The notes under the pieces: generated by a model
The model's input: the letters and a program-made list of their open reading frames with translations, nothing else
Told to the model about the DNA's origin: nothing
Databases searched by the model: none
Shown here: piece by piece, positions 4,603-62,675 of the stretch
Layout: the number at the start of each line of letters is the position of its first letter
How positions within the stretch are numbered: position 1 is the stretch's first letter
Position numbers and translations under genes: made by a program
NCBI GenBank assembly: GCA_039583875.1
Contig: CM077162.1
Location: 63,408,822 to 63,472,821, forward strand
Reading direction: 5' to 3'
Source: Platanthera guangdongensis
Taxonomy: Eukaryota > Streptophyta > Magnoliopsida > Asparagales > Orchidaceae
Length of the DNA: 64,000 bases

Positions 4603-4706
4603 AAGAAATTTCATCCTCGAAATTCAGACACAGGAAGGCAATCAGTAACCAGCAAGAAAAATGTTACAACATGCAAATTTTTATGTTACAACATCCTCTC
4701 TACAGA

Positions 4707-25068: not shown

Positions 25069-25086
25069 ATCTCACCCTATTTGGGT
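25069..25086 (-). other. SireD polypurine-tract position
   Basis: The minus strand reads CCCAAATAGGGTGAGAT against the LTR; the usual GGGGGAGAT is altered to GGGTGAGAT. Confidence 0.7.
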
Positions 25087-25226: not shown

Positions 25227-26017
25227 TCAAACTTTCTTTGTAGCATCCTGTGAAGTTTCAGAAGATGGTTTAGTGAAGATTATCTCTCTCTTGGGATCAA
25301 TTGGTTCTCTTATAGTCATCTTCATGTCTTCTGCTCCAAGAAATTTTACAGAAGCAGCTCTTGACACAACTGCTTCAGGATGTAAACACATATAAGAATC
25401 AACATTGAAAAGTTTTTGTACATGATATTTATCCAGTTCTTTATTTCTGTAAGAAGACATAGTTGAATATTGAGAAGTATCTTTGGCTTCTTCCTTGGCT
25501 TTTCTGATCTGTGAAAGAGTTATCAGCTCATTAAATCTAGTCATTCTAGAATTAGGATCCATTTTAGGATCATATATTGGAGAGGGAGGTCTCTCTGGAC
25601 TGGAATCTCTTTCTGATTTTCTTCTAATTTCTGTTGTTGACTACTATGCTTCATGTATTGTTGTTTACTACTTTGAGAACTGTGTTGTTGTTTGCTGCTG
25701 CTGTAAGATGGTCTGGATTGATGAGAAGCAGACCTTTGAACTTGAGAAGTATTTCCTGCTGATCCTGCTGCAGGAGGAGGAGGAGGTCCTCTCCAAGTAT
25801 TCTTAGGAGGAGAATTATATCTCTTCATTTTCTTTCTTCTCTTTTGTTCATTAATAGAAAGTCTCATCCAGCAGGGAGTATCTGGAGTGAGAGTAATGTT
25901 ATGCAGAATGTAGTAGGGAGTATTTGCTTTAGGATTTGGTTTTGGTGCAGCCTTTACTAAAGCCTTTCTCTTCTTAAATTTTCTTTTCTTGGAACTGGAG
26001 TCATCTGACTCATCAGA

Positions 26018-26060
<43 letters not shown>

Positions 26061-26612
26061 GATTCATCTACAGGATTATCATACAAAGCATTAATCTATT
26101 TAAGCAAAGCATCAGACAATACAAGAAGAGCTTGTGATTGTTCAGTTACATATTCTTCTTCAGCCTAAGGCTGTACTTCTGACTCTATTATTTTTGTATC
26201 TATATCCTCAAACATGAGATCATTAAGATTAGGCAAGGGGGATTCTGCCCAACCAAATGTAGGAGGAGAGAAAGCATTTGGCTCTGGAGTTATTATTTGC
26301 TCTATAATATTCTCTTTAACTACAAAACTTGTCCTAAGTTGTTCCAATACTTGAGGATATATAAGTGTTGTATAACAAACTATAGCTTTAGTGCAAGTGG
26401 AGAAATCTGGAAGACTGTTGCAAACTATATCAAATGAATGAAGTAAAGAATAGATGTCAACTGTTAGATTAAGAATAAAATCACCAACAGTTTTTATTAC
26501 TACATCAACTGATTCTTCTTCAAAACAAATCATATCAGTGTCATCCTCAAGAATTTCAATTATTTCTGTTGCTGGAATTGTTGATGTTGCTGGAATTATT
26601 GTTATTGCAGCT
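25227..26612 (-). pseudogene. SireD ORF3, C-terminal part
   Basis: Continuation of the SireD third ORF, function unknown. In protein order: AITIIPATST, TVGDFILNLTVDIYSLLHSF (compare TVGDFILNPTVNLQALLKTF in SireB), LYDNP, a run of Asp encoded by TCA/ATC triplets (25990-26060), SSSKKRKFKKRKA (nuclear-localisation-like), ANTPYYILHNITL, a Pro stretch, a Gln/Ser-rich part, and the conserved end with LHPEAVVSRA. Stops at about 26162 and 26096 and a frameshift near 25610 break it. LardE separates it from its N-terminal part at 55931-57365. Confidence 0.82.
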
Positions 26613-28073: not shown

Positions 28074-28277
28074 TGCAACTATAGAGCGACTCAGGATGAC
28101 TGAAAATTTCATTATAAGAGTTATTTTTGTCGCTAAAAGTAGTTTTTAGGAGTTGTTTTGTTTTGTTTTGTTTTGATCCCTTTTCTCTTGTGTTGTTATT
28201 CCGTCAGTTGGAATTGTTAGTTTTATTCTCAGAATCTATGCAAAGTAGTTGTGTCCTTTATATTTGAAATCTTCGCA

Positions 28278-30382: not shown

Positions 30383-32257
30383 TGTTGGATCCCTAGTTGA
30401 TTTGGGCTAGGTTCACTAACTTAGGATGTGACCTAACATGTGTAGCTAGGGTCAAATTTGTGTCCTAGAGTCTAGGCCAAGTCCTTAGAGTCAATCTCAG
30501 ATGGACAAGCTATCAACAAGACCATGAGAGACTAAAGACTTAGAAGATTTCAAGACTAAGTCAAATGAGTTCGACGTTCGTCGAACTCAGGTCGATGAAA
30601 GGCATTCTCAGCTCGACGATCTTGGGATATTTCTCTGAGCTGAGCTCGACGATCTTCGTTCTCTAGTCGACGAAAACTGGGATACTTCAACAAACTAAAG
30701 ACAGGATAACTCCAGATTATTCTAAGTCCAACTTCAGGCTTTGGTCGACGAACAAGATTCTGAGCTTGACGAATATGGACTTCAACTTCTCAGTTCGACG
30801 ACGTCAACTTCTCTGGTCGACGAACTCAGTACTCTATTTGACGAATTCTGGAACCAGAAGATTTATGTTGACACTTAGGGCATGTGTCATCACCAACTTA
30901 TGTTGACAGACAGAATATCAGTCAACACAAAATATTTGACTAAATCCAGAATTGTTGCTGAACTCCAGTCGACGAATGAAATTGTCAGCTCGAAGAACTT
31001 CAGACAGAAAAGGCAAAGGTTCTGAAGCATGCAAGTTCTGTTATCAGCTCGACGAACTTGGAACTTAGCTCGACGAACAGAAGCTGTCTGGTCGACGAAT
31101 ACAACATCTCAGTTCGACGAACTTGTAACTCAGCTCGTCTAATTCTGTTATTCGTTCGACGATTCTAGACATAGCCATTTCCGGCATTCAATCCTCACTC
31201 AAATGCAATAATTCCTGACAGATTAATGACTCAAACATTCTCTGAATGTAACCGTTAGAGGAAGCATTAATTACAGTCTTCTTCAGGAATATTACTTGCT
31301 GATTTTCCACGGGGTAGTTGAGGAAATGATTAAATGCCGATTATTCTCAAGGCGTCAGCATTAATTACAGAGGATTCAAATTTTTTAAAAGATATAGAAG
31401 AAAAGAAGATCGAGAATCAGAGAGAGAAAAACGAACACGTGAACAAGAATATACTCAGTCAGAAAAATATAGACACACACAGACTGACTACAAAAATTCA
31501 AAAAGTAGCAGAAGAGCTTCACACAAGAAGAATATATACAAAAAGCTCACAGTGATAGGAAGTGATATTCATTCAGAAGAAGAAGAACAATCATACTATA
31601 TCAAGAGTCTTCTTCTTCAACATTCCCTCCAGGACTTCCAAGAACAACAGATATCAAATCAGTCAAGAAGATCTTGCATCACTGCTTGTCAAGAACTCTG
31701 ATTGAAGACCTATCACCCTGCAGCAAAGCTCTAGATCTTCCCTAAATCATTCTACATCTCAGGGGGAGCTGTTTGCTAACATCATTCCACATAAGTCTTC
31801 TCTATGTTTGTTGACAGAGAAGATAAAATCACTCTCTCACACCCTCCTATACAAAGGGTTGTCATCTCCCTTCAAAAGTGATTCCTGGTTGCAAGTCTCC
31901 TCATCAAAACACTTGAGTTGGTTTTTGGGGACCTGATCAAAACCCATTGGTGTCAGGCACCTGATCAAAAACCTGAGTGGATTCCTACTAAGGGTGGTAG
32001 AAGAGTGGACTACCCAGATTTGGGGAACCACTATAAATTTCTTGTATCGTCTGGTTGCTTATATTTTTTTTGTTTTTGTTGTGTGGCGGTGATTAGGTTT
32101 AATATTATCTATATTTCAGTTTTCTATTCACTGCACTTCTTCAGTTTACAGCAAAAGCTGTAGCAGCACTTGTATTTGGACATAACCAAAAATTTAAATA
32201 TACTCTATTCACCCCCCCCCCCCCTCTAGAGTATTGTAGACCTAACCCTCACTTTCA
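30383..32257 (+). repeat. SireB 5' LTR (1,875 bp)
   Basis: TGTTGGATCCC to CTCACTTTCA. TCGACGA/TCGTCGA motifs fill 30570-31170. A TATA-like TATATACAAA lies at 31534-31543. Several GTCGAC sites present in the 3' LTR read GTTGAC or GTCATC here. A C run at 32212-32223 lies near the end. Confidence 0.93.
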
Positions 32258-32259
32258 AT

Positions 32260-32271
32260 TAGTATCAGAGC
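32260..32271 (+). other. SireB primer binding site (one mismatch)
   Basis: TAGTATCAGAGC two bases after the LTR, against the usual TGGTATCAGAGC. AGCAAG|GTTCC just beyond could be a splice donor. Confidence 0.8.
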
Positions 32272-37518: not shown

Positions 37519-37916
37519 GTTCTGTCTGCATTCGACGAATTTTCCAAAGTTCGTCGAACGGAGTTCGACGAACCGGGGAAGGTTTGAGAGATATCCGTCG
37601 AACGGAGTTCGCCGAATTCTCTGTGTGAAACAATTTTCGTCGACCGGAGCTCAACGAACTTTGCTTCAGAAGATATTCATCGGTCGGAGTTCGACGAATT
37701 ATCTTCAAGTCTTCTGAATGAGATCGACGAATTACTTATTATTAACTCATTTCGTCGACCTCAGTTCGAAGAATTAATTGTATTTTCGTGGAACGGAGTT
37801 TGTCGATTCATATTCAGGAAAACCTTATATCTAGGTTTTCTTCGACCTCCATCCCGCGCTTTTTGTTCCCTTGTACATGATCGTCATTTTCTCTGTCTTT
37901 CTTGCAGGTGATCTCA
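37519..37916 (+). other. SireB pol-ORF3 spacer with splice-acceptor-like site
   Basis: About 400 nt without a gene, dense in TTCGTCGA...TTCGACGAA palindromes (37530-37800). It ends in the pyrimidine tract TTTCTCTGTCTTTCTTGCAG (37888-37907), nine nt before the ORF3 ATG. SireC and SireD have the same layout. Confidence 0.7.
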
Positions 37917-40721
37917 ATGGTGGCTCTGGAAAGTAATCTCGCCGGAATGAAGTTTGACACAGGTTTTGACGTGGATTTCGACTCGTTTCAGCATTCTGAT
38001 CCAATCTTTCTATATATCCTGGAACTCCATGAAGAGCAGGAACTCAAAACCCTGATGACTAGGAGGATCAAACTACACAGCATGGAAATCAAAGAATGGG
38101 TATACACATTGTCGTCCACAGAATAGAATATCTTGACAAGCACCATCGCGGGTAACTCAATTTCTTTAACCACCGCAATCTTAATTGAGATTTTCGGATT
38201 TAAAAATGGAGAAGATGACCTCGAACTTGAAACGGAAGAGTCTGATATGATGTTGAACCTCATGGAATATGCTAGAGACAATCCCCATAAACTGTTGAAT
38301 AAACACTTGTCTGCGCCATATAAATTCTTAGCAGACTTGGTTGGTAAAGTACTACTGGGAAAACACACTGCACACAATTACATCACCAGACAACAGTTTC
38401 TGGTTATATGTGCAATTATCAACAAGAAGCAAATAGACTCGGCACAACTTCTGTTTGATTTGATAAAGAAGAAGAATACTAAGAAGGAAGTATATTTTGG
38501 AAAAATTCTAGGAATCTTCCTCCAGGAAAAGGCTGCTGAATCCCTGGTCTCCCCGACCATATTCATAAATGTCAGTAAAAGGCTGACCTGTGCCTTATTC
38601 GGCAGATGGGAGAGGACCATTACTAAGACCTCTCAGGCTTCCACCTCTTCCATCAAAGCTTCTAAAGGCACAAGGGGTGTCAAAGCCACTCCTCACCCTG
38701 CTGAAGAGAGCATTCCTTCCACATCTTCTCTTCCAGCCCCCCTTCCAACAACAACACAATCCCTAGTCACCCCATCTGTACCAATCCACATCATTGATAT
38801 TCCATCTTCCTCCCTTCAGGCAAATCAACCACCCACACCTCTTGAATCCCCTCAAGACACCTACATTTCCACACCACCACAGTCTACACTTCCCCCACAT
38901 TTATCTTCCATACCATCTTACATCCTACCCTCAGACACCATGATGCAAGATGCCACCCTTCCATCCCCATCAACATCTCACCTTCAGATCCCTGATGTTC
39001 CACCCTCCATTCCATCACTGGTTGCCACCTCTTCCACGCCAACTGCACCACCATCTACCACTTTCTCACTGGACCCCTCTACCATCTCCTCTATCATCAC
39101 CATCATCACTCCCATTCTTAAAACACTCATAGCAGAGGCCATTACACCTCTTGCTACAACCATTACCTCCTTATATGCTCAAATATCTGCTCTTACTGCT
39201 GCCCCCTCCTCAGTCAGGGGTCTGGCCTCAGTTCTCACTGAACCTAAGCAGGGGGAGATGTCTGATGATGAAGCATCAGCTATAGCTTCAGATACTTCAG
39301 CCCCAGCTATAGATAAAGATTTAATTGATTTTATTGATACTAATATGGACATTGATGAAACTGTTGGTGATTTTATCCTCAATCCCACAGTTAATTTACA
39401 AGCATTGCTGAAAACTTTTGATACTGTATATATGCATCCTCTTCCAGCAACATTCACTAAGCTACATTTGGCTATTGTGCCTTATACTTCTCCTGTCAGT
39501 CCAGCAGTTGCTCAGTAACTATGTGACAGTTTTGAAATTCCAGTTTCTGCACCAACCTCTGCAGTCATTCCATCCTCTCTAGAAGCTATCTCAGCACCAA
39601 TCTTTGTGATGGATGACTCCCCTATGCCAGATCTAGATGAGTTGATCTTGGCTGACATTGAAGAAGAAAATAAGGAAGTAGCTGAAAGCTCTGTCCCAGT
39701 TACTTCTGATTCTTGTATAGTCTCTTCTTCAACTCCTGTTGAAACTGCAGCCTTTGAAACTTCTGCTCCTGCTACAGAAAAGACTGTTATTTATGACAAA
39801 GCCTTCAAAGCATTGGATGCTCTATATGATAACCCTCAGGGTTCTGCAAGTTATAATGATGAAGATGATGATGAAGAAGATTCAGATGAAGAAACTGCCA
39901 AGAAGAAGAAGAAAATGTTGTCAAAGAAAAGGAAAGCCCCTCCTCCTCCTGCTGCTAAGCCAAACCCAAAGAATGACACTCCATTCTATATTCTCCAAAA
40001 TATTACTCCTTATAAAGGAATGCCAGCATGGATGTGTTTATCATAAAATCAATAAAAGGAGAAGAAAAGAAGTAGAAAATATTCTCCTCCACCAGTTCAT
40101 AAGTATAGAAGAGATCCACCTCCTCCACCTCCTCCATCAGCTGGTGTCACTGGATCTAGCTCTCAGAGATCTACCCCTATGTAAACTTATCAGAGACATC
40201 AAGGGGGATCTTCTGGAAGCAGTCAGCAAAGGCATCATTCTTCAGGAAATCAACAACAGCAACATCAACATCAACAGCATCAGCAGCAACATCCAACTCT
40301 CTCTACAGAACAGAAAACTGACAGTCCCAACAGGCCAGATTCACCTCCTGTTCCTTTTGAAGATCCTGAAATAGCAAATATTGCTAAAATGGCCAGGTTC
40401 CAGGAACTTGTTGGTCTATCCTTGATTAATAAAGCAAAAGCTGAAGGCAAAGATATAACAGGATATTCCACTATGTCCAAATACAGGAAGGAAGAACTCA
40501 AGAGATTTGACAAAGAAAATAAATTGTTCAATATTGATGAGTACAGGAAGCTACATCCTGAAGCAGTTGTCCCCAAAACTACATCACTGAAGATTATTGG
40601 GGCAGCTGACATGACAATGACACAGGCATAGGCTTTGGATCCTAAAAGAGAGATAGTGTTTGCAAAGCCAGGTGAAAAGACTAAAGAAGACAAGCCCATG
40701 GAGAAGAAGCAGAAGAAGTAA
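37917..40721 (+). pseudogene. SireB ORF3 (third ORF, 934 codons), function unknown
   Basis: One frame from ATG 37917 to TAA 40719-40721, broken only by stops at 38124, 39516, 40044, 40053, 40182 and 40629; no frameshift. Residues 1-230: conserved domain (MKFDTGFDVDFDSF, EIKEWVYT, KFLADLVGKVLLGKHTAHNY, INVSKRLTCALFGRWER). Then a Pro/Ser/Thr-rich linker; a helix-prone stretch (TPLATTITSLYAQISAL) followed by KQGEM; TVGDFILNPTVNLQALLKTF; LYDNP plus an acidic run; KKKKKMLSKKRK (nuclear-localisation-like); DTPFYILQNI; Pro and Gln/His-rich parts; and the conserved end LHPEAVVPKT. No signal peptide or membrane segment is seen. The N-terminal domain recalls plant transposon-associated domains such as Transposase_32, unverified. 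Confidence 0.8.
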
Positions 40722-40896: not shown

Positions 40897-40909
40897 AATA
40901 GGGGGAGAT
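40897..40909 (+). other. SireB polypurine tract
   Basis: AATAGGGGGAGAT immediately before the 3' LTR (TATTGGATCCC, mutated TG). Confidence 0.9.
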
Positions 40910-42785
40910 TATTGGATCCCTAGTTGATTTGGGCTAGGTTCACTAACTTAGGATGTGACCCAACATGTATAGCCAGGGTCAAATTTGTGTCCTAGAGTCT
41001 AGGCCAAGTCCTTAGAGTCAACCTCAGATGGACCAGCTATCAACAAGACCATCAGAGACTAAAGACTTAAAAGATTTCAAGACTAAGTAAAATGAGTTCG
41101 ACGTTCGTCGAACTCAGGTCGACGAAAGGCATTCTTAGCTCGACGATCTTTAGATATTTCTCTGAGCTGAGCTCGACAATCTTCGTTCTCTGGTCGAACG
41201 AAAACTGGGATACTTCAACAAACTAAAGGCAGGATAACTCCAGATTATTCTAAGTCAAACTTCAGGCTTTGGTCGACGAACAAGATTCTGAGCTCGACGA
41301 ATTTGGACCTCAACTTCTCAAGTCGACGAAGTCAACTTCTCTAGTCGACGAACTCGGTACTCTACTCGATGAATTCTGGAACCAGAAGATTTATGTCGAC
41401 ACTTAGGGCATGTGTCGACACCAACTTATGTCGACACACAGAATATCAGTCAACACAAAATATTTGACTAAGTCCAGAATTGTTGCTGAACTCCAATCGA
41501 CGAATGAAATTGTCTGCTCGACGAACTTCAGACAGAAAAGGCAAAGGTTCTGAAGCATGCAAGTTCTGTTATCAGCTCGATGAACTTGGAACTCAGCTCG
41601 ACGAACAGAAGCTGTCTGGTCGACGAATACAACATCTCAGTTCGACGAACTAGTAACTCAGCTCGACAAATTCTGTTATTCGTTTGACGATTCCAGAATT
41701 AGCCATTTCTGACATTCAATCCTCACTCAAATGCAATAATTCCTGACAGATTAATGACTCAAACATTCTCTGAATGTAGCCGTTAGAGGAAGCATTAATA
41801 ACAGTCTTCTTCAGGAATATTACTTGCTGATTTTCCACGGGACAATTGAGGAAATGATTAAATGCCGATTATTCTCAAGGCATCAGCATTAATTACAGAG
41901 GATTCAAATTTTTGAAAAGATATAGAAGAAAAGAAGATCGAGAATCAGAGAGAGAAAAAAAAAGAACATGTGAACAAGAATATACTCAGTCAGAAAAACA
42001 CACACACACACAGACTCGCTGCAAGAATTCAAAAAGTAGCAGAAGAGCTTCACACAAGAAGAATATATACAAAAAGCTCACAGTGATAGGCAGTGATATT
42101 CATTCAGAAGAAGAAGAATAATCATACTATATCAAGAGTCTTCTTCTTCAACATTCGCTCCAAGACTTCCAAGGCCAACAGATATCAAATCAGTCAAGAA
42201 GATCCTGCATCACTGCTTGTCAAGAACTCTGATTGAAGACCTATCACCCTGGAGCAAAGCTCCAGATCTTCCCTGAATCATTCTACATCTCAAGGGGAGC
42301 TGTTTGCCAACATCATTCCACATAAGTCTTCTCTCTGATTGTTGACAGAGAAGACAAAATCACTCTCTCACCCCCTCCTGTACAAAGGGTTGTCATCTCC
42401 CTTCAAAAGTGATTCCTGGTTGCAAGTCTCCTCACTAAAAGACTTGAGTTAGTTTTTGGGGACCTGATCAAAACCTATTGGTGTTAGGCACCTGATCAAA
42501 AACCTGACTGGATTCCTACCAAGGGTAGTAGAAGAGTGGACTACCCAGATTTGGGGAACCACTATAAATTTCTTGTGTCATCTGGTTGCTTATCTTTTTC
42601 TTTTTGTTTCTTGCTGTGTGGCTGTGATTAGGTTTAATATTATCTGTATTTCAGTTTTCTATTTACTGCACTTCTTCAGTTTACAGCAAAAGCTGTAGCA
42701 GCACTTGTATTGGGACCTAACCAAAAATTTAAATATACTCTATTCACCCCTCTCTAGAGTATTGTAGACCTAACTCTCACTTTTA
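40910..42785 (+). repeat. SireB 3' LTR (1,876 bp)
   Basis: TATTGGATCCC to CTCACTTTTA (both terminal dinucleotides mutated). It is the partner of 30383-32257 with the same motif field at 41095-41690, where GTCGACAC sites at 41396, 41413 and 41429 are intact. Confidence 0.92.
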
Positions 42786-43729
42786 GTGAGCATGAGGTAG
42801 GCCATCATTTTGGCTAGTTTGAGCCTTTTTGTACCTAGTCCTAGCAGCTGACACTTGCAAGCCAAATTTGCGCCTACCCTCGTTTTATTTCAGCTCTACC
42901 TATATTCACCAAAGCCTAAAAGCCAACCCTTTTGTCGCAACCAAAACTTTGAGCTTGATCGATTTCAAAAATTTGATATGTTGTGATATTTGGGATTCAT
43001 GTGATGTGGAGTTGAATTCATGAATTGCTAATTTTTAGATTTGGGGATTGTTGAATGAAAAAGAAGAAAAATGAAAAAGAAAAAGATGAATAAAAAAGAA
43101 AAAAAAATTAAAATTATTACAAGGAGAATTGCAATCCCCATCTTGTCTGTTAGTTTTTGGTCGGGATAGGCCATGTGCATACCCAGTTTTCAAGCCATGT
43201 ATGGGGGTGTGTCACACATGCATTTCTTAGTGGTTGTTTGGGTTTAGCTCTTGTTCGCTCGCTTTGGTTGCGTGTAGCCTCCTTGTTTATCATTGACTAC
43301 CACACCTTAGCCTTAGCCCCATTCAAACCTACAAGTCCTGCTGATTCACATTTGAGTCTACTTAGCATCGTGGAGAGAGTGTGAAAGGGCAAGTTATGGT
43401 TCCTGACATTGATGGATTTCTTTGGAGGTGATCACGAGCCCCGGTCTTGGGCAATGCTCACCTTAGTGTCCTGTCTACTTTCTTCATACACATGACCGAA
43501 TGATTCTCCAGAATTCTAATTTTAAGTAGACATAATATTTTTTTACCTCTGTCGAATAATTTAAGCTCCGTAGTATAATTAAAAAGTTTTTCTATTCTAT
43601 TTTCTATGCGCATGATGTATTTGATTTCTTGTCCTACTATATTTTGATGTTTCTAAGCCAGCTAGCTTTCTTTACAGTACACGGAGTAATGATTTGCGTG
43701 GGATGCGCAAATGGGTAAGTCTGGGGGTG
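42786..43729 (+). other. LardE interior after SireB, with polypurine tract
   Basis: No gene seen. An A-rich tract lies at 43060-43125. It ends with AAGTCTGGGGGTG at 43717-43729, the polypurine tract before the 3' LTR. Confidence 0.7.
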
Positions 43730-43759: not shown

Positions 43760-45253
43760 GAAAGTGGGGATAAGATCTACCTTAACTCTAGAGAGGGGGT
43801 GAATAGAGTTTATTAAAATAATTTTCAAGTTAAAAACTATTTTGCAGTGGAAGATTTAATTTAAATATATGTGTAAGGTTCTTGCAGTAAATAAAAAACT
43901 ATGAAAGCAAGAAATAAAAACACAACACACGGCAAACAAAATATAGCAACCAGAAGACACAAGGAGCTATAGTGGTTCCCCAACCAATCTAGGTGCATCC
44001 ACTCTTCTACCACCCCTAGGTAGGAATCCACTGCAGGATGAGTTGATCAGGTGTCCTGGGCACCAATGAGATTTTGATAAGGTGCTCAAAAACCAAACTA
44101 GATTTTTTGATCAGGTGTCTTGCCACCACTGAGTTTTGACAAGGTCTCAGAAACCAACACAAAACTTTTGAAGGGAGTTTTGAGAAACCCTTTTACAGCA
44201 GAAAAAAGAAAGAGGTGAGATGTTCTTCTCTGTCAACAATCAGAGAGAAGACTAGTGGATGATGTTGTTAAAGCTCCCCCTGAGATCTGGAAGTTGTTCA
44301 GGAAAAGAAGCTTTGCACTAGGGTGATAGGCCTTTAGTAGATGAGATCTCCAACAAAGGATGATTCCAGCAGTTGCTGAAATGTGTAGTGTCTGGAGTCT
44401 TGATGGATGAAGCCTTTGAACACTTGAGGCAAAAGAGATCTAGAAAATCTTCTTTTCTGTATGTTGATCTCCTTCAGTGGTGTGTGTTCTTAAAGAATTC
44501 TATCTGTGTGTCTGTCTGTTACTGTTCTTTTTCTGTGTATATCTGTTGTTAGGAGTAGCAGAAGTTATATCCTCTTTTATTCCTTAGATCTAAAAAGAAT
44601 GAATTGATTCTCTGTCTCCAAGATAGCCGTTAGCCACTCATTAATGACTTCCTTAAAATATATTTTGTCTCTGGAGGAAAGTCCTAGAAAACATTCCTTT
44701 AATCTCCCTTGAAACTTGCTCCAGATTAATTGAAACGGCTACAAGATCCTTGAAATAAATGCTGGGAATAAATAAGATAGAATTCCATAACTGTCTGAAT
44801 TTGAATCTTGAGAATCGTCGATCACTCTAGAAAATCGTTGACCTGAGCTCAACTATCGTCGACCTGAGCTCAGAGACTGGAACTAGACTGGAAATAGAAA
44901 TCGTCGATCTGAGCTCAACTATCGTCGACCTGAGCTCAGAGACTGGGAAAACAGCTAGAGACAGAAATGTTGATCTGAGCTCGAAGATCGTCGAACGGAG
45001 TTTGACGACTCGTTGAACTGAGCTCAGAGATAGTCGAACTGAGTTCGACGATTCGTCGACCTGAGCTCGACGAAAATAACTTAGTCTCCTGAATTTGAAT
45101 ATCTGATCTGAGGGTCTTGGGGGCAGCTTTCAAGCCTAAATTCTAACCCTTAGACTCAATCTAATTGACCTTAAAAACTATACAAGGAGGTCAACACAAA
45201 TTTCCTAAAGACATAGTGATCCTTGCCCAAATCAGTAATAGGGTGTTCCAACA
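43760..45253 (-). repeat. SireC 3' LTR (1,494 bp)
   Basis: TGAAAGTGGGG to GTGTTCCAACA, followed inward by ATCTCCCCCTATTTG (polypurine tract on the minus strand). The field 44815-45070 is dense in TCGTCGA and GAGCTCA motifs. From 44039 it matches 53303-54520. Confidence 0.92.
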
Positions 45254-45402
45254 ATCTCCCCCTATTTGTGTTAGGATTACTATTTACATGACATAGGAAA
45301 TAAACGCATACAATGCAGATATAAAATCAAAAACATCATTGCAGAAACACAAATAAATTCACATCAGAAAGTCAGAATAGATAACACTGTCAGCTTACAT
45401 AA

Positions 45403-48283
45403 TCATTCCTTTTCCTTGCTCTTTTTGAGAACTATTTCTCTGTTAGGGTTAAGAGCTTCTTTCTTGGATCTTGTGCCATCAGCTGCATCTAGAAAAGTTT
45501 GAAGTTTTGTCCTGGGGACTACAGCTTCTGGGTGCAGCTTCATATAGCTTTCTGAGTCAAAGAATTTGCTGGAGGAATATCTTTCAAGTTCTTTCTTTCT
45601 CTGTTCTGATAGAGTAGTGAAACTTGATGTATCTTTTCCTTGTTCTCTTGCCTTTTTAATTTGATCTAGTGCAACCAACTCTTTCATTCTTGCTGTCCAA
45701 GAAGTAGGATTATTCTCTGGGTCTTCAAATGGAACAGGAGGTTCATATCTGTTTGATGAATCATCAGGAGTAGTTCTGGAAGAAACTAGAACTCTTAACT
45801 TATAAGGGAAAGGACCAGATGTAGTGTCAATGGGACCTTGTCCTTCTCTATGAAAAGGATGCTGCCTAGAATAACCTTTGCAATAAACTCTGAATTCTCT
45901 TTGATTTCCCCTATACTGTCCTCTTCTAGACTGGTAGCCTCTTGATTGATATTCTCTTGATTGAGATCTTCCTTGAAACTGAGAGGTGCTATGACTTTTA
46001 GCAACAGATGACTGATAAGCCGAACTTCCACCAGTACCTGCATCTGGTAAAGGAGGAGGAGGAGGAGGATTGAAGTGAGATGATCATTTATCATATTTCC
46101 TCTTTTTCTTCATTGCCTTTAGTTGATTCCTGGAAAACTGCATCCATGGTTCTGAAATTGGACAATCATGCAAGATATAGTATGGAATATCATTTTTATC
46201 TGTAATTTTCTCCTGGGGAACTCTCTTTAGGGCCTTGCTTCTAGCTTTCCTCTTCCTTGCAATGGCTGTAGAGGAATCATCAGAATCAGTTCTAAATTGA
46301 TCACTATCTGAGCTCTGAGGATTGTCATATAGTTCATCAAGCCTTTTGATGGAATCTCTTTGTTGTTGGGATTGAACAGAAGAAACAACAACAGCAGCAG
46401 CAGTACCAAAAACAGTACTAACAGATGTAACTGGAATAACAGTTTCAGAAATAAAATCTACAGAAACAGCAGGCTCAGAGTCATTGGCCGCTGTCATAAG
46501 CACATCATTAGAAACTAAAACAGCATCAGCAGTAGCAGCAAGAGCAACAGAAACTGAAGGAGCACTGTCCACAGCCTTGAAAGAATTTATATAAGAAGAG
46601 ATTATGCTGGGCTCACAGCTAGAAATAGGCACAATGGCCTTAGTAAGATCTTCACTTTTCTGATCTGGAAGACAGCTGAAGTAGATAGTATCAAACTCTG
46701 ACAGCAGTGACCTGAGGTCAACTGTTATAACTGGAACTGGAGCTGGAATCTCTGAAGCAGCTGGAATCTCTGAAGTAGGCAATCTCTCTACTTCATATGG
46801 CATTTCCCCCTGCCTAGATTCAGTAGATACTGGATCAAGGCACCCAACAGAAGCGATTTCCTGATGAGGATATAGGGAAGAGAGACTGTCAGATAACTCC
46901 TGAACTGATTTCAGAAGTGGAGCTAGGGAGGTCTCCAGCAGGAGTGATAGCCTTGGAGCTAACATCTCATAGAGCTTATCTACTATGTATGAGAGATCTA
47001 CTGCTCAAGTGGTGCTTAAGTAGAGGTAGAGATGAGTGTGGCAGAGATGGATGTAGGAGCTGTAGATGTGGTTGGAGAAAGTGTGAATGTGGATGGTAGA
47101 ATTGATGGTTGCGATATAGGAATGGTGGAGATGGAAGTTAATAGAATGGAGATAGATGGATTGAAGGATGGTTGAGCAATGATTTCTTATAGTAGTTATT
47201 GATATGATGGAGAAGAAGATTGTGGCTCAAGGGGTGAGGAGTGAGAATCATCCATATAGGAATCATCTAAGAGAGTGAAGGAGGGAAGGTGAGATGATGA
47301 GTCAGTGGTTATGTGTGGATAATGATGTAATGGATGGAAAACATCTTCAGTGGATATTGGTGTTGGTGAAGGAATTGAGTTTGGAGATGGAATGGATATG
47401 GGGGATGAAATTGAGATGGTTATGGTGGATGTGATAATTGTTGAGGGAACAGTAGCTAGATAAGGTGGAGATGAGGAGGCAGGCAGTTCTTCTGATGGGG
47501 CAGTTGCCTGAGGGGAAGTGAATGGAGCAGTCCTGGTGCCTGAAGATGAGATGACTGCAGAGGCTCTGCTTGGCTTTGCAATTTGCTTGTCCCATTTGCC
47601 AAAAAGGGCACAGGTTAACCTCTTAGAGGCATTGATATGCATCCCATTTGAAACAAGGAGCTCAGGGCATCTGCTAGAAGAAATAGCCCTATAATCCTTT
47701 CAAAATTGACAAAGTTCTTATTCACTTTATTCTTGATTAGGTCAAAAAAAACTTCTCCCCAGTTCAACTGTTTCTTATCCACCAAAGCACCCATTAAACA
47801 TAATTGATACCTGGATATGGTATCATGGGCATAATGTTTTGCTAACAGGACCTTTCCAACAACATCTGCTAGAAACCTGTATTCCACTGACAGATTTTTC
47901 TTAAGCAGCTTGTTAGGGTTTGCTGCTGAGTGACCCATCCAATCAAGCATACTTGAAAACTCTTCTCCAGACAACTCAAGATAATATTGACCAGTACTTA
48001 ATTGAAAAACTTCTGTTAATATAGCAGAAGTAAGAGATACCTGATTGTCTGATATAGTTCCAATCACTGTATTTTGATCTTGATTGTGAGCAGTATACAC
48101 CCATTCTTTGATTTCATCTGCAGCCAGTTTTATCCTTGTGGTTATAATGTGTACTAGCTGTTGATCTTTGAATAAATCCAGAATATCCTTGAAAATCTGA
48201 TCACTGTTCTCAAACGAGTCCATATCGATATCAAATCCAGTGTCAAATTTCATTGCTGCCAAAACTGCAACAGAAACGGCCAT
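45403..48283 (-). pseudogene. SireC ORF3, function unknown
   Basis: Starts ATG at 48283, seven nt after an acceptor-like CAG. The first 215 residues are clean: MKFDTGFDIDMDSFENSDQI, DEIKEWVYT, MGHSAANPNKLLKKNLSVEY and FLADVVGKVLLAKHYAHD. Frameshifts follow near 47640 (before INASKRLTCALFGKWDK) and between 47196 and 46965. Then come ESRQGEM (46801-46815), LYDNPQSSDSD, KRKARSKALKR, DIPYYILHDCP and KKKRKYDK; a TGA near 46082 is explained by CGA to TGA. A Pro run and an Arg/Gly/Gln/Ser-rich part (YQSRRGQYRGNQRE) precede the C-terminal block with LHPEAVVPRT, ending at 45403. Total about 960 codons. Confidence 0.82.
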
Positions 48284-48744
48284 TTTTTCCTGCAAAAATG
48301 AATAAACAAAAGACCAAGTGTAGAAACATTTGGAGGGAAAGGGAAATTCTGCAGAGAGTATGAAAGCGCAAAGGGAGAACGACGGCCGAAAAATGAATTT
48401 TATATTAGGGTTCGACGCAGAAAAGGAAAGATTGTTGAACTCCGTTCGATGATCTGGGCTTCTAAAGGAATCTGAAAGGTCTGCAACATCGTCGATCTCC
48501 GTTCGACGATATTGGAAAGCGTCGATCTCCGTTCGACGATCACTGACCGGAAGAGGATAGCTTAGAACTATCTGGAAAGCGCTGAACTCCGGTCGACGGT
48601 TTCTAAGAACGTCAATCTCCGTTCGACGATCATTGAGAAAAACGTCAAGCGCAGTTCAGAGAGCAGAAACAACCTATAGACACTAGAAAAATCAAATTGT
48701 TTGCCTACTCTTGATCAATTTTTAGAGTTTTAAAATCTTGGATC
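48284..48744 (-). other. SireC pol-ORF3 spacer with splice-acceptor-like site
   Basis: About 460 nt with GTTCGACGAT / ATCGTCGA motifs. On the minus strand TTGTTTATTCATTTTTGCAG ends at 48290, directly before GAAAAAATGG of ORF3. Confidence 0.7.
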
Positions 48745-51700
48745 TTATTTTAAACCTCCTCCATCTAACATTCCTAACTGATTCAGGAAGAATGTATGTT
48801 TCTTTTCATCCAATGGTTTGGTGAAAATATCTCCCCTTTTCAAGTAAGTTGGGATATATTGAAGTTCAATTTTATTTTTCTCAACATTGTCCCTTAAAAA
48901 GTGATGCCTAATTTCTATATGTTTTGTCCTACTATGGAGGACTGGATTTTGTGCTATAGAAATAGCACTAGTGTTATCACAGAATATTTTTGACTTCTCT
49001 AAGTTGTATTCATAGTCTGTGAGCTGATTTTGAATCCACAAGATCTATGAGCAACAACTACCTGCTGCCATATATTCAGCTTCAGCAGTTGATGTGGATA
49101 TAGATGTTTGTTTCTTGAAAAACCAGGAGACAAGTCTGTCACCAAGAAACTGGCAAGTTCCACTGGTGCTTTTCCTGTCTATTCTGCATCCAGCATAATC
49201 AGCATCTGAAAATCCAGTTAAGTCAAATGCTGAGTCTTTTGGATACCAGAGACCTAGATTTGGACAACTTTTCACATACCTAAGAATCCTTTTTACTAAG
49301 GTTAAGTGTGACTCTCTAGGGCTCACTTGAAATCTAGCACATATGCATGTAGCAAACATTATGTCAGGTCTACTGTCTGTAAGGTACAATAAAGAGCCAA
49401 TCATTGCTCTATATGTTGTCTGATCAACAGATTTCCCATGTTCATCAGCATCTAATAAAGCATTAGTAGGCATAGGTGTTTTCATACATGAGGCTTCAGA
49501 CATACCAAATTTCTTAACCAGTTCTTTTGCGTACTTGGTTTGAGAGATGAATATGTCTTCAGCATGCTGTTTGACTTGTAATCCTAGAAAGAAGGAAAAC
49601 TCACCCATGCTACTCATTTCAAATTTAGAATGCATTAGGTTGGAAAACCTTTTGCACAGATTTGAATCAGTAGAACCAAAGATGATGTCATCTACATAGA
49701 TTTGTACTAGTAAGGTATTGGACTTATGGGTTCTAATAAAAAGAGTTTGGTCTACTCTACCCCTTATAAAATCACTTTTCAGAAGAAAGCATGCTAGGGT
49801 CTCATACCATGCTCTAGGAGCTTGCTTTAGACTATATAATGCTTTATGCAATTTGAAAACATAATCAGGATGAGTTGGAGAAATAAAACCTGGGGGTTGT
49901 CTAACATAGACTTCTTCTGTGATGTCTCCATTGAGAAAAGCCCTCTTTACATCCATTTGATATACTTTGAATCCTTTGTGTGATGCATAAGCTAAGAAGA
50001 TTCTTATGGCCTCTAACATTGCAATTGGTGCAAAAGTCTGGTCATAGTCTATCCCTTCTTCCTGAGAGTATCCTTGAGCAACTAGCCTTGCCTTGTTCCT
50101 TACAATGACTCCTTGATCATCCAATTTATTTCTGAACACCCATTTTGTTCCAACAATGGAGTGATCCTTTGGCCTTGGCACTAGTTCCCAAACTTTGTTC
50201 CTTTCAAATTGATGTAATTCCTCTTGCATTGCAATGATCTAGTGTGGATCTTGTTCTGCATCTTGAATGGATTGAGGCTCAATTTGAGAAAGAAAGCAGG
50301 TGTGCATCAGGTTTTGGTTGACCTGATTTCTGGTTTGCACACTAGCTGAGATGTCTCCAATCACTTGGGAGATTGGATGGTCTCTTGATGTTACTAAATC
50401 AACAGTGGGTGTTGATTGTTCACCAACCTGTGTTGTTGTTTCCTCTTGTGGAACAACAACTGGCTCTTCAAGAAGATTCTCTCCAAGATGTTGAATATCT
50501 TCTTCATCTTCACTGCATTCATCCTTTTGTATAATATGTAACCTGTCCAAATGTTCAGCAAGAGAGTGTACCTGCAAAGATTCTATGGTAGAAGCATTCT
50601 TCTCCTTAAAAGACATGTTAGATTCATCAAAGGATACATGAACAGATTCTTCAATTTTAAGAGTAGATTGGTTATACACCCTATAAGCTTTACTGATCAT
50701 GGAGTATCCCAGAAACACTCCTTCATCAGCTTTAGCTTGAAATTTTGCTATGTATTTCTTGTCATTATTGTGAATGTAACAAATGCAACCAAATATTTTA
50801 AAATAATCTACTTTAGGTTTCTTCCCTTTGAGTAATTCATAGGGAGTCTTGCCCTTCAGCTTATGTATCAAACTTCTATTCAACACATAGTTGGAGGTGT
50901 TCACTACCTCTGCCCAAAAGAATAGAGGAAGGTGAGCATCTGACAACAATGTAGTAGGAGATTCAATAAGGGTTCTATTTTTCCTTTCAGCTACCCCATT
51001 TTGTTGAGGAGTTCTAGGAGCTGAGAAAGTGTGCATGATCCCTTCACTCTGACAGAACTCTTGCATAAGAAGAGAATCAATTTCTGTCCCATGATCACTT
51101 CTGATCAGGGCAATGTGAGTATTGAACTCACTCTGTATGCATTTGAGAAACTCTGTCAAACACTTAAAGTTATCAGACTTCTTCCTCAGAAAGAACACCC
51201 ATGTGAATCTAGAAAAGTCATCTACAACTACTAAAGTATAAGATTTCCCTCCTAAGCTTTGTACTGTAATGGGTCCAAAGAGATCCATGTGTAACAGATA
51301 CAAAATCCTAGGTGAATCACTCTTATTAAGTGACTTGAAGCTATTTTTGGTTTGCTTGCCTAATTGACAAGCCCTGCAAAGTCCTTCCTTCTTGTAGGGG
51401 CCAGAAGGTAGTCCTCTAACAAGGTTGTCCTTGGATTGCCTAGCAATGGTTCTAAGGTTTATATGTCCTAATCTTTTATGCCAAAGTTCATTAGGTATAC
51501 AAATGGAATTGAACAAGCATATATCTACCTTTGTTGAAAGAAAATCTACAAGATAAATGTTACCTTTCCTTTTACCTGTCAACACAGTTGTGTTGTCCTC
51601 TGATTTGATTTTGCTTGAGGATTTGTTGAAAGTCACTTGGTAGCCTTCATCACACAGTTTACTGATGCTGATTAAGTTGTGCTTCAGTCCTTCCACATAA

Positions 51701-51912: not shown

Positions 51913-51913
51913 T

Positions 51914-53302: not shown

Positions 53303-54520
53303 TGATGAGTTGATCAGGTGTCCTGGGTACCAATGAGCTTTTGATAAGGTTCTCAAAAACCAAACTAGATTTTTTGATCAGGTGTCTTGCCACCACTGAG
53401 TTTTGACAAGGTCTCAGAAACCAACACAAAATTTTGAAGGGAGTTTTGAGAAAGACTTTTATAGCAGAAAAAAGAAAGAGGTGAGATGTTCTTCTCTGTC
53501 AACAATCAGAGAGAAGACTTGTTGATGATGTTGTCAAAGCTCCCCCTGAGATCTGGAAGTTGTTCAGGAAAAGAAGCTTTGCAATAGGGTGATAGGCCTT
53601 CAGTAGATGAGATCTCCAGCAAAGGATGATTCCACCAGTTGCTGAAATGTGTAGTGTCTGGAGTCTTGATGGATGAAGCCTTTGAACACTTGAGGAAAAA
53701 GAGATCTAGAAAATCTTCTTTTCTGTATGTTGATCTCCTTCAGTGGTGTGTGTTCTAAAAGAATTCTGTCTGTGTGTCTGTCTGTTACTGTTCTTTTTCT
53801 GTGTATATCTGTTGTTAGGAGTAGCAGAAGTAATATCCTCTTTTATTCCTTAGATCTGAAAAGAATGAATTGATTCTCGGTCTCCAAGATAGCCGTTAGC
53901 CACTCATTAATGACTTCCTTAAAAGAAATTTTGTCTCTGGAGGAAAGTCCTAGAAAACATTCCTTTAAATCCCCCTTGAAACTTGCTCCAAATTAATTAA
54001 AACGGCTACAAGATCCTTGAAATAAATGCTAGGAATAAATAAGATAGAATTCTATAACTGTCTGAATTTGAATCTTGAGAATCGTCGATCTCTCCAGAAA
54101 ATCGTCGACCTGAGCTCAACTATCTTCGACCTGAGCTCAGAGACTGGAACTAGACTAGAAACAGAAATCGTCGATCTGAGCTCAACTATCGTCGACCTGA
54201 GCTCAGAGACTGGGAAAACAGCTAGAGACAGAAACGTCGAACTGAGCTCGAAGATCGTCGAACGGAGTTCGACGACTCGTTGAACTGAGCTCAGACATAG
54301 TCGAACTGAGTTCGGCGATTCGTCGACCTGAGCTTGACGAAAATGACTTAGTCTCCTGAATTTGAATATCTGATCTGAGGGTCTTGGGGGCAGCTTTCAA
54401 GCCTAAATTCTAACCCTTAAACTCAATCTAATTGACCTTAAAAACTATACAAGGAGGTCAACACAATTTTCCTAAAGACATAGTGATCCTTGCCCAAATC
54501 AGTAATAGGGTGTTCCAACA
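53303..54520 (-). repeat. SireC 5' LTR, truncated (1,218 bp)
   Basis: Matches 44039-45253 of the partner LTR closely. The first 280 bp (in plus-strand coordinates) are missing because GATGAGTTGATCAGG of the LTR is joined to gag. Confidence 0.9.
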
Positions 54521-55930: not shown

Positions 55931-57365
55931 CTATTGGAGTTGCTGCTGCTGCTGGAGGAGCTTTTTAATTGGACATTTCCCCCTGCCTGGTTTTAGAGAG
56001 TCCTGAACCTAGGCCCCTAGAAGAAGGGACAGAAGAGGAAGAGGCAATTTTGGAAGAGAGAGCAGCAATGGTAGAAATAAGAGGCGCAACAGCTTCCTTT
56101 ATTATCTTATTCAGAGGAGGAGTGATAAATTCAAGAAGATCAGTTGCAATGTAAGAGAAATTTAGATAAAGTGGTTCAGGAGTAGATGGGGTATAAGTGG
56201 ATTGGTGTCCACAGTTGGGACAGACTGAGAATGCTTGAGGGAAGTCTATATGTTGGAATGATGGGAATGCTGGTGGAATGATTATTGGTATTTTAGTAGG
56301 GATTTCTTCCTGGATAGGGGAATGATGTGGAGAGAGGTATGAAGATAGAGATGGAGATAATGTTGTCAGACTAAAGGTTGGAGATGTTGTTGTTGGAATT
56401 GTAGAGGTGGATGAGATAGTCTCTAGGTGGAGTGGTAGAGGAGATGGAGGAGGTGTAGATGGTATGTGTGAATCTGGAGGGATGACAGTGGATGGTATTT
56501 CTTCAATAACAATGGTAGACTCTTGTTGCTATGGAGGAGTTTAAGGTGGTCTAGAAGATGGTGGTGGAGGAGAAGCAAGAACTTCTGTAGGATTTGGAGG
56601 AGTGACATCACTTGTCCTTGTGTGCTCTGAAACTCTGGAGGAAGAGACCCTACAGGGCTTTGAGATTACTCTCTCACACTTGCCAAAGAGGGATGAGGTC
56701 AGCCTCTTGGAGGCATTTATGAAGGTGGTCTGAGAGACCAACGGCTGTGGGCATCTGGCTTGCAGAAATAAGCCAAGAATCCTCCTATAACAGACATCAT
56801 TTTTAGTTATCTTCTTGATGGAATCAAACAAGATACAATCCCAATTCACTGACTTTTTGTTCACCAAGGCACTCATCAGTAGAAATTGATGCCTTGTAAT
56901 GTAATCGTAGGTAGTATGTTTACCCAGGATTACTTTCCCAACTATGTCAGCCAAAAACTTGTACTCCACTGATAAGTTTTTCTTCAAAAGCTTGCTAGGG
57001 TTTCCTGCGGAGTGACCCATCTTAATCAACATATCATTATATTCAGACCTATCCATCTCTATATCATCATTTCCATTAACAAGATCAACAAGTTCAGATA
57101 AAATTACAAGCATTAGGGGAACCTGTTCTTCAGATATTGTGCCGATGAGGGTTGTTACATCTGGTAAGGAGGATGTATAAACCCATTCTTTAATCTCTAT
57201 GATTGGAAGCTTGATGTGAGTTGTCATAAACTTCCTTAGTTGCTGCTCCTCAAATAATCTCAGAATATCAGTGAAGATTTGATTGGAGTGAGTGAATGAA
57301 TCATTGTCTATACCAAAACCAGCATCGAACTTCATGTTGGTGAGTACCGCCGCTGAGATCGCCAT
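55931..57365 (-). pseudogene. SireD ORF3, N-terminal part
   Basis: Starts ATG at 57365. Conserved domain: MKFDAGFGIDNDSFTHSNQI, EIKEWVYTSS, MGHSAGNPSKLLKKNLSVEY, KFLADIVGKVILGKHTTYDY, LMSALVNKKSVNWDCILFD and INASKRLTSSLFGKCER. Stops near 56541 and 56530 open the Pro/Ser/Thr-rich linker, which is otherwise readable to EAVAPLISTIAALSSKI and TRQGEM (55973-55990). A TAA follows three codons later. LardE then interrupts, and the C-terminal part continues at 26612. The NWDCILFDSIKK segment recalls the K-x-INWG-x-ILF pattern of plant transposon-associated domains, an unverified resemblance. Confidence 0.83.
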
Positions 57366-57756
57366 TATTTTCCTACAAAAACAAGAGAAAGATCAAGTGC
57401 AAGGGAACAAGAAAGCACGGGATTTAGTTCGATGAAAACTTAGATATAAGTTTTCAGAAGGCAAAAAGTCGAACTCCGTCCAGCGAGAAACACAAACTCC
57501 GAGCTCAGTTCGACGAAATTCTCAAAATAGAAAATAAGATCGTCGATCTAAGCCGGAAGAAGAGAAAACGTATCATCGTTCTCCGTTCAACGAAATATTT
57601 TCTGAAAAAAATTCGTCGATCTCCGTTTGACGAATAGTTTCACAAAGAGAAATTTGTCGATCTCAGTTCGATGAACTCTTCACGAAGAGTTCACAGATCG
57701 TCGATCTTCGTTCGACGAACTGTGCCCTAATCGTTGAACTCAGAATAAAAATTAAA
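57366..57756 (-). other. SireD pol-ORF3 spacer with splice-acceptor-like site
   Basis: About 390 nt with TCGTCGAT / GTTCGACGAA motifs. On the minus strand TTTCTCTTGTTTTTGTAG ends at 57373, eight nt before the ORF3 ATG. Confidence 0.7.
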
Positions 57757-60700
57757 TTATGCCTCCTCATTTATCATGCCTAGCTGATTTAGAAAAAACA
57801 GATGTTTCTTCTCATCTAAAGGCCTAGTGAAGATGTCTGCTCTTTATAAATCAGTAGAGAAAAAGACAGGATTAATTTTATTTTTATCCACACAATCTCT
57901 TTTGAAATTATGTCTAATTTCTATATGTTTGGTCCTACTATGATACACTGGATTTTGTGCAATGAAAATTGCAGTGGTACTATCACAAAATATAGTTGAA
58001 TTATTTAGATTTAAACCAAAATCCAGAAGTTGGTTTTGAATCCACAAAATTTGTGAACAATAACTGCGAGCTGCTATATATTCAGCTTCAGCAGTTGAAG
58101 TTGACACAGATGTCTGTTTCTTACAAAACCAAGACACAAGCCTATCACCAAGGAACTGGCATGTTCCTGATGTGCTTTTCCTGTCAAATCTACATACAAT
58201 AAAGTCAGCATCTGAGAATCCAGTTAATTCAAATTCTGACTCAGTTGGATACCAGAGTCCTAGATTTGGACAACCCTTTATATATCACAAAATCCTTTTA
58301 AGTAAAATAAGATGAGATTCTTTAGGGTTCACTTGAAATCTAGCACATAGATATGTAGCAAACATTATATCTGGCATACTAGCTGTGAGATACAACAAGG
58401 ACCCAACAATAGCACAATATGTTTTTTGATCAACTGGCTTGCCCTGTTCATCAGAATCAATCACAATATTGGAAGTCATGGGTGTTTTCATAGCTGAGGC
58501 ATTATACATCCCAAATCTCTTAATTAGCTCCTTAGTATATTTAGATTGGGAGATGAAAATTCCATCAGGGGATTGCTTCACTTTAAGACCAAGGAAGTAG
58601 GAAAGCTCACCCATGCTTCTCATTTTAAAATTGGAATGCATCAGGTCGGAAAACCTTTTGCATAGTTTGGAATCAGTAGAGCCAAATATGATGTCATCTA
58701 TATATATTTGTACTATCAAAATTTCATTTTATGATGCCTAATAAAAAAAGTCATATCTACAATGCCCCTAGTGAACTTATGCTCTAAAAGAAAGCTAGCT
58801 AGGGTCTCATACCAAGCTCTTGGAGCTTTCTTTAAACCATATAGAGCTTTATGCAACTTAAAAACAAAAGAGGGATGAGTTAAAGAGATAAAACCTGGTG
58901 GTTGCTCCACATAGACTTCCTCTTTGACTTCAACATTAAGGAATGCACTTTTGACATCCATTTGGTAAACTTTGAATTTCTTGTATGCTGCATATGCAAG
59001 AAATATTCTGATAGCCTCCAGCCTTACAATAGGGGCAAAGGTCTGGTCATAATCAATTCCTTCCTCTTGTGAATAGCCTTGAGCTATCAATCTTGCTTTG
59101 TTCCTTACAATTGATCCTTGAGCATCCAACTTATTCCTAAAAACCCATTTAGTTCTAATGTCTGGGTAGTCTTTGGGTCTTGGAACTAAATCCCAAACTC
59201 TACTTCTCTTAAATTGATGGAGCTCCTCTTGTAATAATCCAGTGGGGATCTTGCTCTGCATCTTTTATGAATTGAGGTTCAATCTGATATATGAAATAAG
59301 CATGTATCAAATCTTGGTTGAGGTGATGCCTTGTTTGCATACCAACTGATATGTCTCCAATCACTTGAGATATGAGATGATATCCAAGTGTGACAAGATC
59401 AGTTAGAGGAGTTAGTTGATCAATAGCTTCGGGAATTAATTCCTCTTGAGAAATTATGTTTGCTGCTGTTGGTTCAACTGTTCCAATAATTTTTTCTTCA
59501 CTTTCTTCATCAGTCTGTGGAGAAGGATGAGATGTAACCTCTTGGGTGAGGTTTAAGTCATCCAATTTCTCACATAGAAAGGGTACCTGCAATGTATCTC
59601 TGGTAGAAGAATCATTCTCCTTGTATCACATGTTAGCTTCATCAAAAGTTATATGTACACATTCTTCCATTTTTAAGGTTGATTTGTTAAATACCCTATA
59701 AGCATTGTTGACTTGAGAATATCCAAGAAAAATTCCCTCTGCAGCTTTGGCTTCAAACTTTCTAAGATGTTTCTTGTTATTATTGTGAATATAACACCTA
59801 CAACCAAATACTCTAAAATAATCTATTTTAGGTTGCTTCCCTTTAAGCAATTCATAGGGAGTCTTGCCCTTAAGTTTGTTTATTAAACTTCTATTCAAAA
59901 CATAATTTGTCATGCTTGCAGCCTCTGCCCAAAAGGATAGGGGCAAGTAAGCATCTACAAGTAATGTCCCTGCAGCTTCAATAAGGGTTATATTTTTCGT
60001 TTGTGCTACCCCATTTTGTTGAGGAGTTCTAGGAACAGAGATGCAATGCCTGATACCTTCCTTCTCACAGAATTCTTGAATAAGTAGGAATTCAAACTCA
60101 GTATCATGATAACTTCTGATCAATACAACTGGAGTATAGTACTCAATCTTTATGCTCCTAAGAAAGTCGGTAAGAACTTTAAAGTTATCTGACTTGTTTC
60201 ACAAAAAGAACACCCAAGTGAATCTAGAAAAGTCATCTACAATAAGTAGAGTGTAAGATTTCCCTCCCAAACTTTGTACAGTAATGGGTCCAAAAAGATT
60301 CATGTGTAGCAAATACAAAATTATGGGTGAATCACTCTTATTAATTGATTAAAAACTATTTTTAGTTTGCTTGCATAATTGAGAAGCCCTGCAGAGACTT
60401 TCGTTCTTGTAGGGGCTAGAAGGCAATCCTCTAACAAGGTTGTCCCTAGATAGTTTAGCAATATTTCTTAAATTTATATGTCTTAGTCTTTTATGTCATA
60501 AATCATTAGCATTACTAATCTAATTAATAGACAGATTTCTGTACTGGCTGGTTTAAAATTTACTACATAAATATTTCTTTGTCTAATTCCATTTAAAATA
60601 ATTTTGCTTTTATCAGAAGTAATGGTACAACAAGATTGATTAAATTATACCTGATAACCTTCATCACATAACTGGCTTATGAATATCAGGTTATGTTTGA

Positions 60701-62530: not shown

Positions 62531-62675
62531 TGTTGGGTACATTGGTCAAATGTACCTGATTTGAAGAAGCCTGACCCAACTCAATGATATACATCATAAT
62601 GTATTTGATGTGTGTTTGAGTTACTTGTGCAGGTTAGGTATTCACTAGACTGAAGCTAAAAGTTTCTAAGTCCAT

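Follow-up and report, generated by a model that had tools for sequence, protein, structure and literature searches.

Retrotransposons of the SIRE lineage (Sireviruses, Ty1/copia) typically carry an extra open reading frame (ORF) in sense orientation between pol and the 3' long terminal repeat (LTR), known as eORF-3'F or 'env-like' (Neumann 2019, Bousios 2010), for which the portions of the literature drawn on here give a frequency of 74% and a division into 19 groups. The function of env-like ORFs in plants is called unproven and controversial in the relevant passages of PMC2829016 and PMC3414828. An extra 3' ORF is also found in sunflower Athila elements, where it encodes a predicted nuclear protein with a PF20167-type domain (Transposase_32), as described in part of PMC11728184. 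A further transposon-borne protein, VANC21 of the Arabidopsis element VANDAL21, works together with short motifs repeated in the non-coding DNA of its own element. Here we describe the third ORF (ORF3) of SIRE-like elements in a 64-kb stretch of Platanthera guangdongensis contig CM077162.1 (the window), which holds four SIRE-like copies, labelled SireA to SireD, with pol domains of the kind and arrangement found in Ty1/copia. ORF3 lies in sense between pol and the 3' LTR of SireB, SireC and SireD, and is almost certainly the 3' extra ORF of a SIRE-lineage family; as a kind of object it is already known, and what is new, within the searches made here, is a splice acceptor at its start and the reading of its product as a VANC-like protein. 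SireA, with a 3.8-kb interior consisting of gag and an integrase ORF followed by an LTR, apparently lacks it.

A conserved third ORF under purifying selection

The three ORF3 copies are homologous over about 900 codons, and the coordinates given to them by the initial annotation are correct. Eight sequence blocks (MKFD, EIKEWVYT, FLADxVGKV, SKRLT..LFG, QGEM, LYDNP, P[YF]YIL and LHPEAVV) each have exactly three matches in the six frames of the 64 kb, one per copy and in identical order. A ninth block, KKRK, had been included in this shared order and is less specific, as the basic K/R block has 13 matches and SireC reads RKRK at the corresponding place, with KKRK further on. The copies had also been described as large ORFs of 934, 960 and 940 codons, but none of the three is open and they represent decayed copies of one ORF: SireB has in-frame internal stops at 38124, 39516, 40044, 40053, 40182 and 40629, the conserved blocks of SireC are spread over three frames, and SireD, with three stops in its N-terminal part, is split by a nested element (LTRs 26636-28048 and 54520-55930; insertion of about 29 kb).

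Regardless of this decay, the ORF3 protein is under purifying selection between lineages. Differences in the N-domain at first, second and third codon positions number 85/58/137 between SireB and SireC (p 3e-8), 72/63/143 between SireB and SireD (p 1e-9), and 82/56/130 between SireC and SireD (p 1e-7), and a weaker third-position excess is found in the C-terminal domain (p 0.005, 0.03 and 8e-5 for the same pairs). Synonymous sites of the N-domain are saturated among the three copies (pS 0.80-0.86), and ORF3 evolves faster than pol, because pN is 0.29-0.32 in the N-domain as compared to 0.12-0.16 in reverse transcriptase. A search of the 4.25-Gb assembly yielded at least 141 scored matches to ORF3, of which 26 of 141 are free of stops over the matched stretch (a hand count that includes the query). 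Forty of the 141 were chosen by hand and fetched, 20 from the nearest matches plus 20 more remote ones (16 of the latter without a stop), and aligned with SireB, SireC and SireD, giving 43 rows and 903 pairs that share history and are not independent. Bins of dN/dS hold 393 of these pairs, 180 with dS of at least 2 and 330 that are saturated or have dS below 0.02 being left out. The median dN/dS is 0.82 for the youngest pairs (dS 0.02-0.1, 6 pairs), 0.47 at dS 0.1-0.2 (170 pairs), 0.34 at dS 0.2-0.4 (61 pairs), 0.17 at dS 0.4-0.8 (25 pairs) and 0.12 at dS 0.8-2 (131 pairs). This pattern is one of selection during the active period of the family followed by near-neutral decay after insertion; dN/dS, the check named beforehand, is not near 1 across lineages, which together with the third-position excess bears out the original proposal of selection on the protein while the family was active.

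The broken state of all three window copies might suggest that ORF3 is instead a captured host gene or evolves as a neutral passenger, but this is very improbable given the at least 141 scored matches and the median dN/dS of 0.12-0.17 between old lineages. Protein similarity searches returned no source host gene, all named matches being Platanthera zijinensis proteins with 37-74% identity over the aligned parts. Three of these proteins (P0007, P0008 and P0009) hold ORF3 pieces, one having DUF674, one bearing the name HOX32 and a START domain, and one bearing the name ribonucleotide reductase; they are probably gene-model chimeras.

Expression of ORF3 from a putative spliced message

Directly before each ORF3 ATG is a T-rich tract followed by CAG/G (TAG/G in SireD), and stretches of 71, 57 and 64 nt preceding the three sites contain no AG. 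When the 9102 AG sites of the window were scored with a plant acceptor matrix, all three sites ranked near the top, and an equally strong acceptor is found at most 15 nt before only four of 2177 window ATGs, three being ORF3 starts. The likely gag ATG of SireA (18121, minus strand) also has an acceptor-like site (score at least 9) no more than 15 nt upstream. An acceptor scoring at least 8 lies within 20 nt of the ORF3 start in 35 of the 40 genome copies, one of which (L046) reads ATA at the start codon position, and in 31 of these 35 no other AG of the same 4 kb scores higher. The gap between acceptor and start ranges from 3 to 10 nt. No such acceptor is present in the remaining five copies, two of which (L015, L029) have different sequence upstream of ORF3, while in the other three (L023, L041, L043) the AG or its context is altered. 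A splice donor for the ORF3 message was looked for in the sequence and not found. Because the acceptor is conserved at a shifting distance from the start, a spliced message is strongly indicated, and to judge from these sequence features ORF3 is likely translated from an RNA whose 3' exon would start 3-10 nt before the ATG.

Such a message would set the orchid elements apart from soybean SIRE1, which is of the same lineage and has its third ORF in the same position. According to the passage on SIRE1 in PMC2829016, its pol and ENV are divided by a suppressed stop codon alone, whereas in SireB and SireC pol and ORF3 are about 400-460 nt apart, with the acceptor before ORF3; a strong acceptor at the ORF start is a difference from Sireviruses generally. 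The message would also differ, whatever the protein does, from transcription by an internal promoter, as has been suggested for other Sireviruses. Unspliced transcription of ORF3 from such a promoter, located in the linker between pol and ORF3, would be consistent with the CpG-rich array of RM boxes there and with TATA-like sequences some 85-120 nt upstream of the ATG, and Bousios et al. (PMC2829016) saw support for it in the case of Sirevirus ENV without being able to pinpoint a promoter. It is nevertheless improbable for the orchid elements: an acceptor kept in 35 of 40 copies would be purposeless, a transcript starting about 30 nt below a TATA-like box would presumably have little space for a donor and an intron, and the TATA boxes of the LTRs look nearer to consensus.

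A further splice-like arrangement occurs at the gag-pol junctions (15940-16085, 51840-51985 and 60850-60995 on the minus strand; 34440-34580 on the plus strand). In all four Sire copies gag stops just before pol, and the two are separated by a 39-49 nt segment of the form AAG/GT...stop...CAG/GTG, although in SireB the donor is GC and the acceptor is lost. Excision of the segment would join gag and pol in one frame despite its varying length, and among all AG sites of the window its acceptor ranks first in SireC and fourth in SireD. The segment may be either a mini-intron or a recoding signal; 39-49 nt is unusually short for a plant intron.

The ORF3 protein and RM palindromes

PF20167 is listed for all eight trimmed ORF3 N-domains examined, below the Pfam gathering cutoff of 45 bits (15.3-25.5 bits where scores are given), so that the likeness to sunflower Athila, a Ty3/gypsy element, involves a sub-threshold match. 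VANC21 (PDB 9lnj), which is DNA-bound in that structure, is the best structural neighbour of both N-domain models, and a VANC-like fold of the N-domain is somewhat more likely than not. VANC21 differs in its DNA transposon origin, in its motif, and in having no detectable sequence similarity to ORF3; VANC proteins have DUF1985 and DUF287, and DUF1985 is absent from the Pfam listing of the ORF3 N-domains at E<=10. Of the nuclear or RNA-binding role originally suggested, the nuclear part is kept, and DNA binding is preferred over RNA binding because of the PF20167 region and the VANC21-like model. A role as RNA-silencing suppressor or RNA-binding chaperone, close to that suggestion and to the double-stranded RNA-binding proposal for Tekay extra ORFs (in the corresponding part of PMC11728184), would suit the basic, Gln-rich and Arg/Gly-rich composition of ORF3. 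It seems improbable, however, as Pfam contains no convincing RNA-binding domain for ORF3 (an RNA-recognition family appears for a single member out of eight, at E 0.25) and the closest protein by fold is bound to DNA.

ORF3 has also been said to be free of membrane segments. On hydropathy (Kyte-Doolittle, 19-residue window, cutoff 1.6), this holds for SireB (maximum 1.59) and SireD and not for SireC, which has two windows above the cutoff, of 1.69 at a frame break and 1.92 in an Ala/Val/Ser/Thr-rich stretch, or for P0010, a relative of SireC, with one of 1.98. The windows of 1.92 and 1.98, the position in the element, the traditional name, and a spliced message like that of BAGY2/Athila (as cited in a portion of PMC2829016) would fit a true envelope-like or movement protein at membranes or plasmodesmata. 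The lack of any such window in SireB and SireD, a cysteine content of at most 1.7% in the ORF3 pieces counted, and the basic K/R clusters make that identity quite improbable.

A second feature shared with Sireviruses is the RM box. With up to 3 mismatches allowed and the strands counted separately, the palindrome CGTCGAAC-N-GA-GTTCGACG occurs 68 times in the window versus 0 in 100 shuffles. It is located in three element regions: the upper LTR, the 3' end of gag, and the linker that precedes ORF3. Position (in the LTR and immediately 5' of the ORF) and dyad symmetry match the boxes described by Bousios et al. (2010), but the arms differ, and the CGG-CCG core of most Sireviruses is absent. When up to 5 mismatches are allowed, 38 of the 40 genome copies have three or more linker boxes, whose spacing recurs; the exceptions are L015 and L029. 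RM palindromes in the 3' coding part of gag (16204-16443, 34054-34273, 52116-52293 and 61186-61405) have spacings of 33, 51 and 84 nt that recur between copies, and the peptide is therefore repetitive there.

RM boxes contain most of the linker CpG (26 in SireB, 20 in SireC and 20 in SireD). The approximately 3 kb of pol hold 3, 2 and 6 CpG in the same three copies and ORF3 holds 17, 7 and 9+0, the last for the two parts of SireD; in the LTRs of SireA and SireB about half of the CpG or fewer are within RM boxes. In genome copies the median is 63 CpG/kb in the linker versus 7 CpG/kb in ORF3. Five copies have 20-46 CpG/kb in the stretch read as ORF3; either the CpG desert of ORF3 is not universal or foreign sequence is inserted in them. 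Unlike the CpG-poor Sire copies, a degenerate Ty3/gypsy element at 4700-9200 (minus strand, weak chromodomain match) has normal CpG content, without CpG depletion.

We tentatively propose that ORF3 is a nuclear VANC-like factor that binds the RM boxes of its own element and counters silencing. LTR-driven RNA would be spliced to the acceptor before ORF3, and the protein would enter the nucleus. It would consist of an N-terminal DNA-binding domain of VANC21 fold and a conserved C-terminal domain, with a Pro/Ser/Thr-rich linker and then an acidic/basic stretch between them. Its N-domain would bind the RM boxes of all three element regions (LTR, gag end, linker), and the bound CpG-rich regions, hence the promoter, would be kept free of silencing and DNA methylation, as by VANC proteins on tandem motifs. 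The splicing step is strongly suggested, and the later steps we infer; RM-box binding with anti-silencing, an analogy to VANC21, is possible but a little less secure than the proposal overall. Six ENV-bearing Sireviruses without RM boxes are reported in PMC2829016, which slightly lowers the odds of RM binding. As for the splicing step, by simple pyrimidine count 66 of 861 YAG/G sites reach 12/16 pyrimidines, so that the ORF3 acceptors, with 13-15, are less exceptional than their matrix ranks. The six elements, the RM boxes in LTRs of Sireviruses without the ORF (same source), and the basic, Gln-rich and Arg/Gly-rich parts of ORF3 would all fit a nuclear ORF3 with another task, such as RNA export, packaging or the choice of integration sites, the RM boxes being enhancers for host transcription factors. 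This is a less likely arrangement, leaving unexplained the VANC21-like model and the co-occurrence of the ORF with linker RM arrays, reported for Sireviruses in part of PMC2829016 and seen here in 38 of 40 copies.

It is more doubtful whether SIRE 'envelope-like' genes generally are VANC-type, sequence-specific anti-silencing factors that co-evolve with RM boxes rather than envelopes. If so, two Sirevirus puzzles, the RM palindromes and the variability of the third ORF, would be linked, and the 19 ORF groups, the differences in RM boxes between elements, and the linker boxes that accompany the ORF would be explained. Elements of three kinds, Ty1/copia, Ty3/gypsy (Athila) and VANDAL, would in that case share one domain class (PF20167/VANC fold), such that two retrotransposon superfamilies and a DNA transposon would escape methylation by one kind of protein.

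Polypurine tracts and other features of the window

As in Sireviruses, a polypurine tract (PPT) precedes the 3' LTR; the octamer AGGGGGAG starts 10 bp before the LTR in all four copies, exact in SireB and SireC and with one mismatch in SireD and SireA. Several linker PPTs (about four per element) are described for Sireviruses, whereas SireB, SireC and SireD have one linker PPT each at up to one mismatch, no extra ones, and one inside ORF3. The latter falls in the QGEM block, coded CAGGGGGA(G/A)ATG in the three copies; the block was located in 14 of the 40 genome copies, and 12 of these 14 read CAGGGGGAGATG. Within 2.7 kb downstream of the ORF3 start, AGGGGGAR is present in 17 of 40 genome copies versus 1 of 40 shuffled. 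QGEM, initially taken as a protein block, contains the PPT octamer in its codons and is better explained as a DNA signal, probably a second PPT within the coding region.

Table 1. Positions of SIRE-like element features in the window
Feature	Position	Strand	Remarks
SireB 5' LTR	30383..32268	+	carries RM boxes
SireB 3' LTR	40910..42796	+	93.7% identity to 5' LTR
SireC 5' LTR (as aligned)	53304..54520	-	carries RM boxes
SireC 3' LTR (as aligned)	44037..45253	-	96.4% identity to 5' LTR
SireB ORF3	37917..40721	+	degenerate, six internal stops
SireC ORF3	45403..48283	-	degenerate, frame breaks
SireD ORF3, N-terminal part	55931..57365	-	
SireD ORF3, C-terminal part	25227..26612	-	far side of nested insertion
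SireB ORF3 N-domain	38127..38616	+	PF20167-like, E 3e-5, below cutoff
SireC ORF3 N-domain	47618..48226	-	PF20167-like, E 5.3e-5, below cutoff
SireD ORF3 N-domain (modelled)	56736..57308	-	both models VANC21-like; sub-cutoff PF20167 match, E 1.4e-5
SireB ORF3 C-terminal conserved domain (..LHPEAVV..)	40275..40628	+	
SireB putative 3' splice acceptor	37892..37907	+	AG 9 nt before ORF3 ATG; rank 3 of 9102 AG sites
SireC putative 3' splice acceptor	48290..48305	-	AG 6 nt before ORF3 ATG; rank 2 of 9102
SireD putative 3' splice acceptor (TAG form)	57373..57388	-	7 nt before ORF3 ATG; rank 6 of 9102
SireB pol-ORF3 linker	37519..37906	+	RM palindrome array, 33 CpG
SireC linker	48291..48755	-	RM array, 29 CpG
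SireD linker	57374..57762	-	RM array, 28 CpG
SireB terminal PPT AGGGGGAG	40900..40907	+	starts 10 bp before 3' LTR
SireC terminal PPT AGGGGGAG	45256..45263	-	
SireD terminal PPT	25071..25078	-	one mismatch
SireB QGEM codons	39249..39260	+	contain PPT octamer, inside ORF3

The element nested within SireD contains a 378-aa ORF (28251-29387, plus strand) with no Pfam match. Adjoining the broken gag of SireD, at 62650-63400, is a dense array of a different palindrome, GTGTCGACAC, possibly the RM array of another element's LTR.
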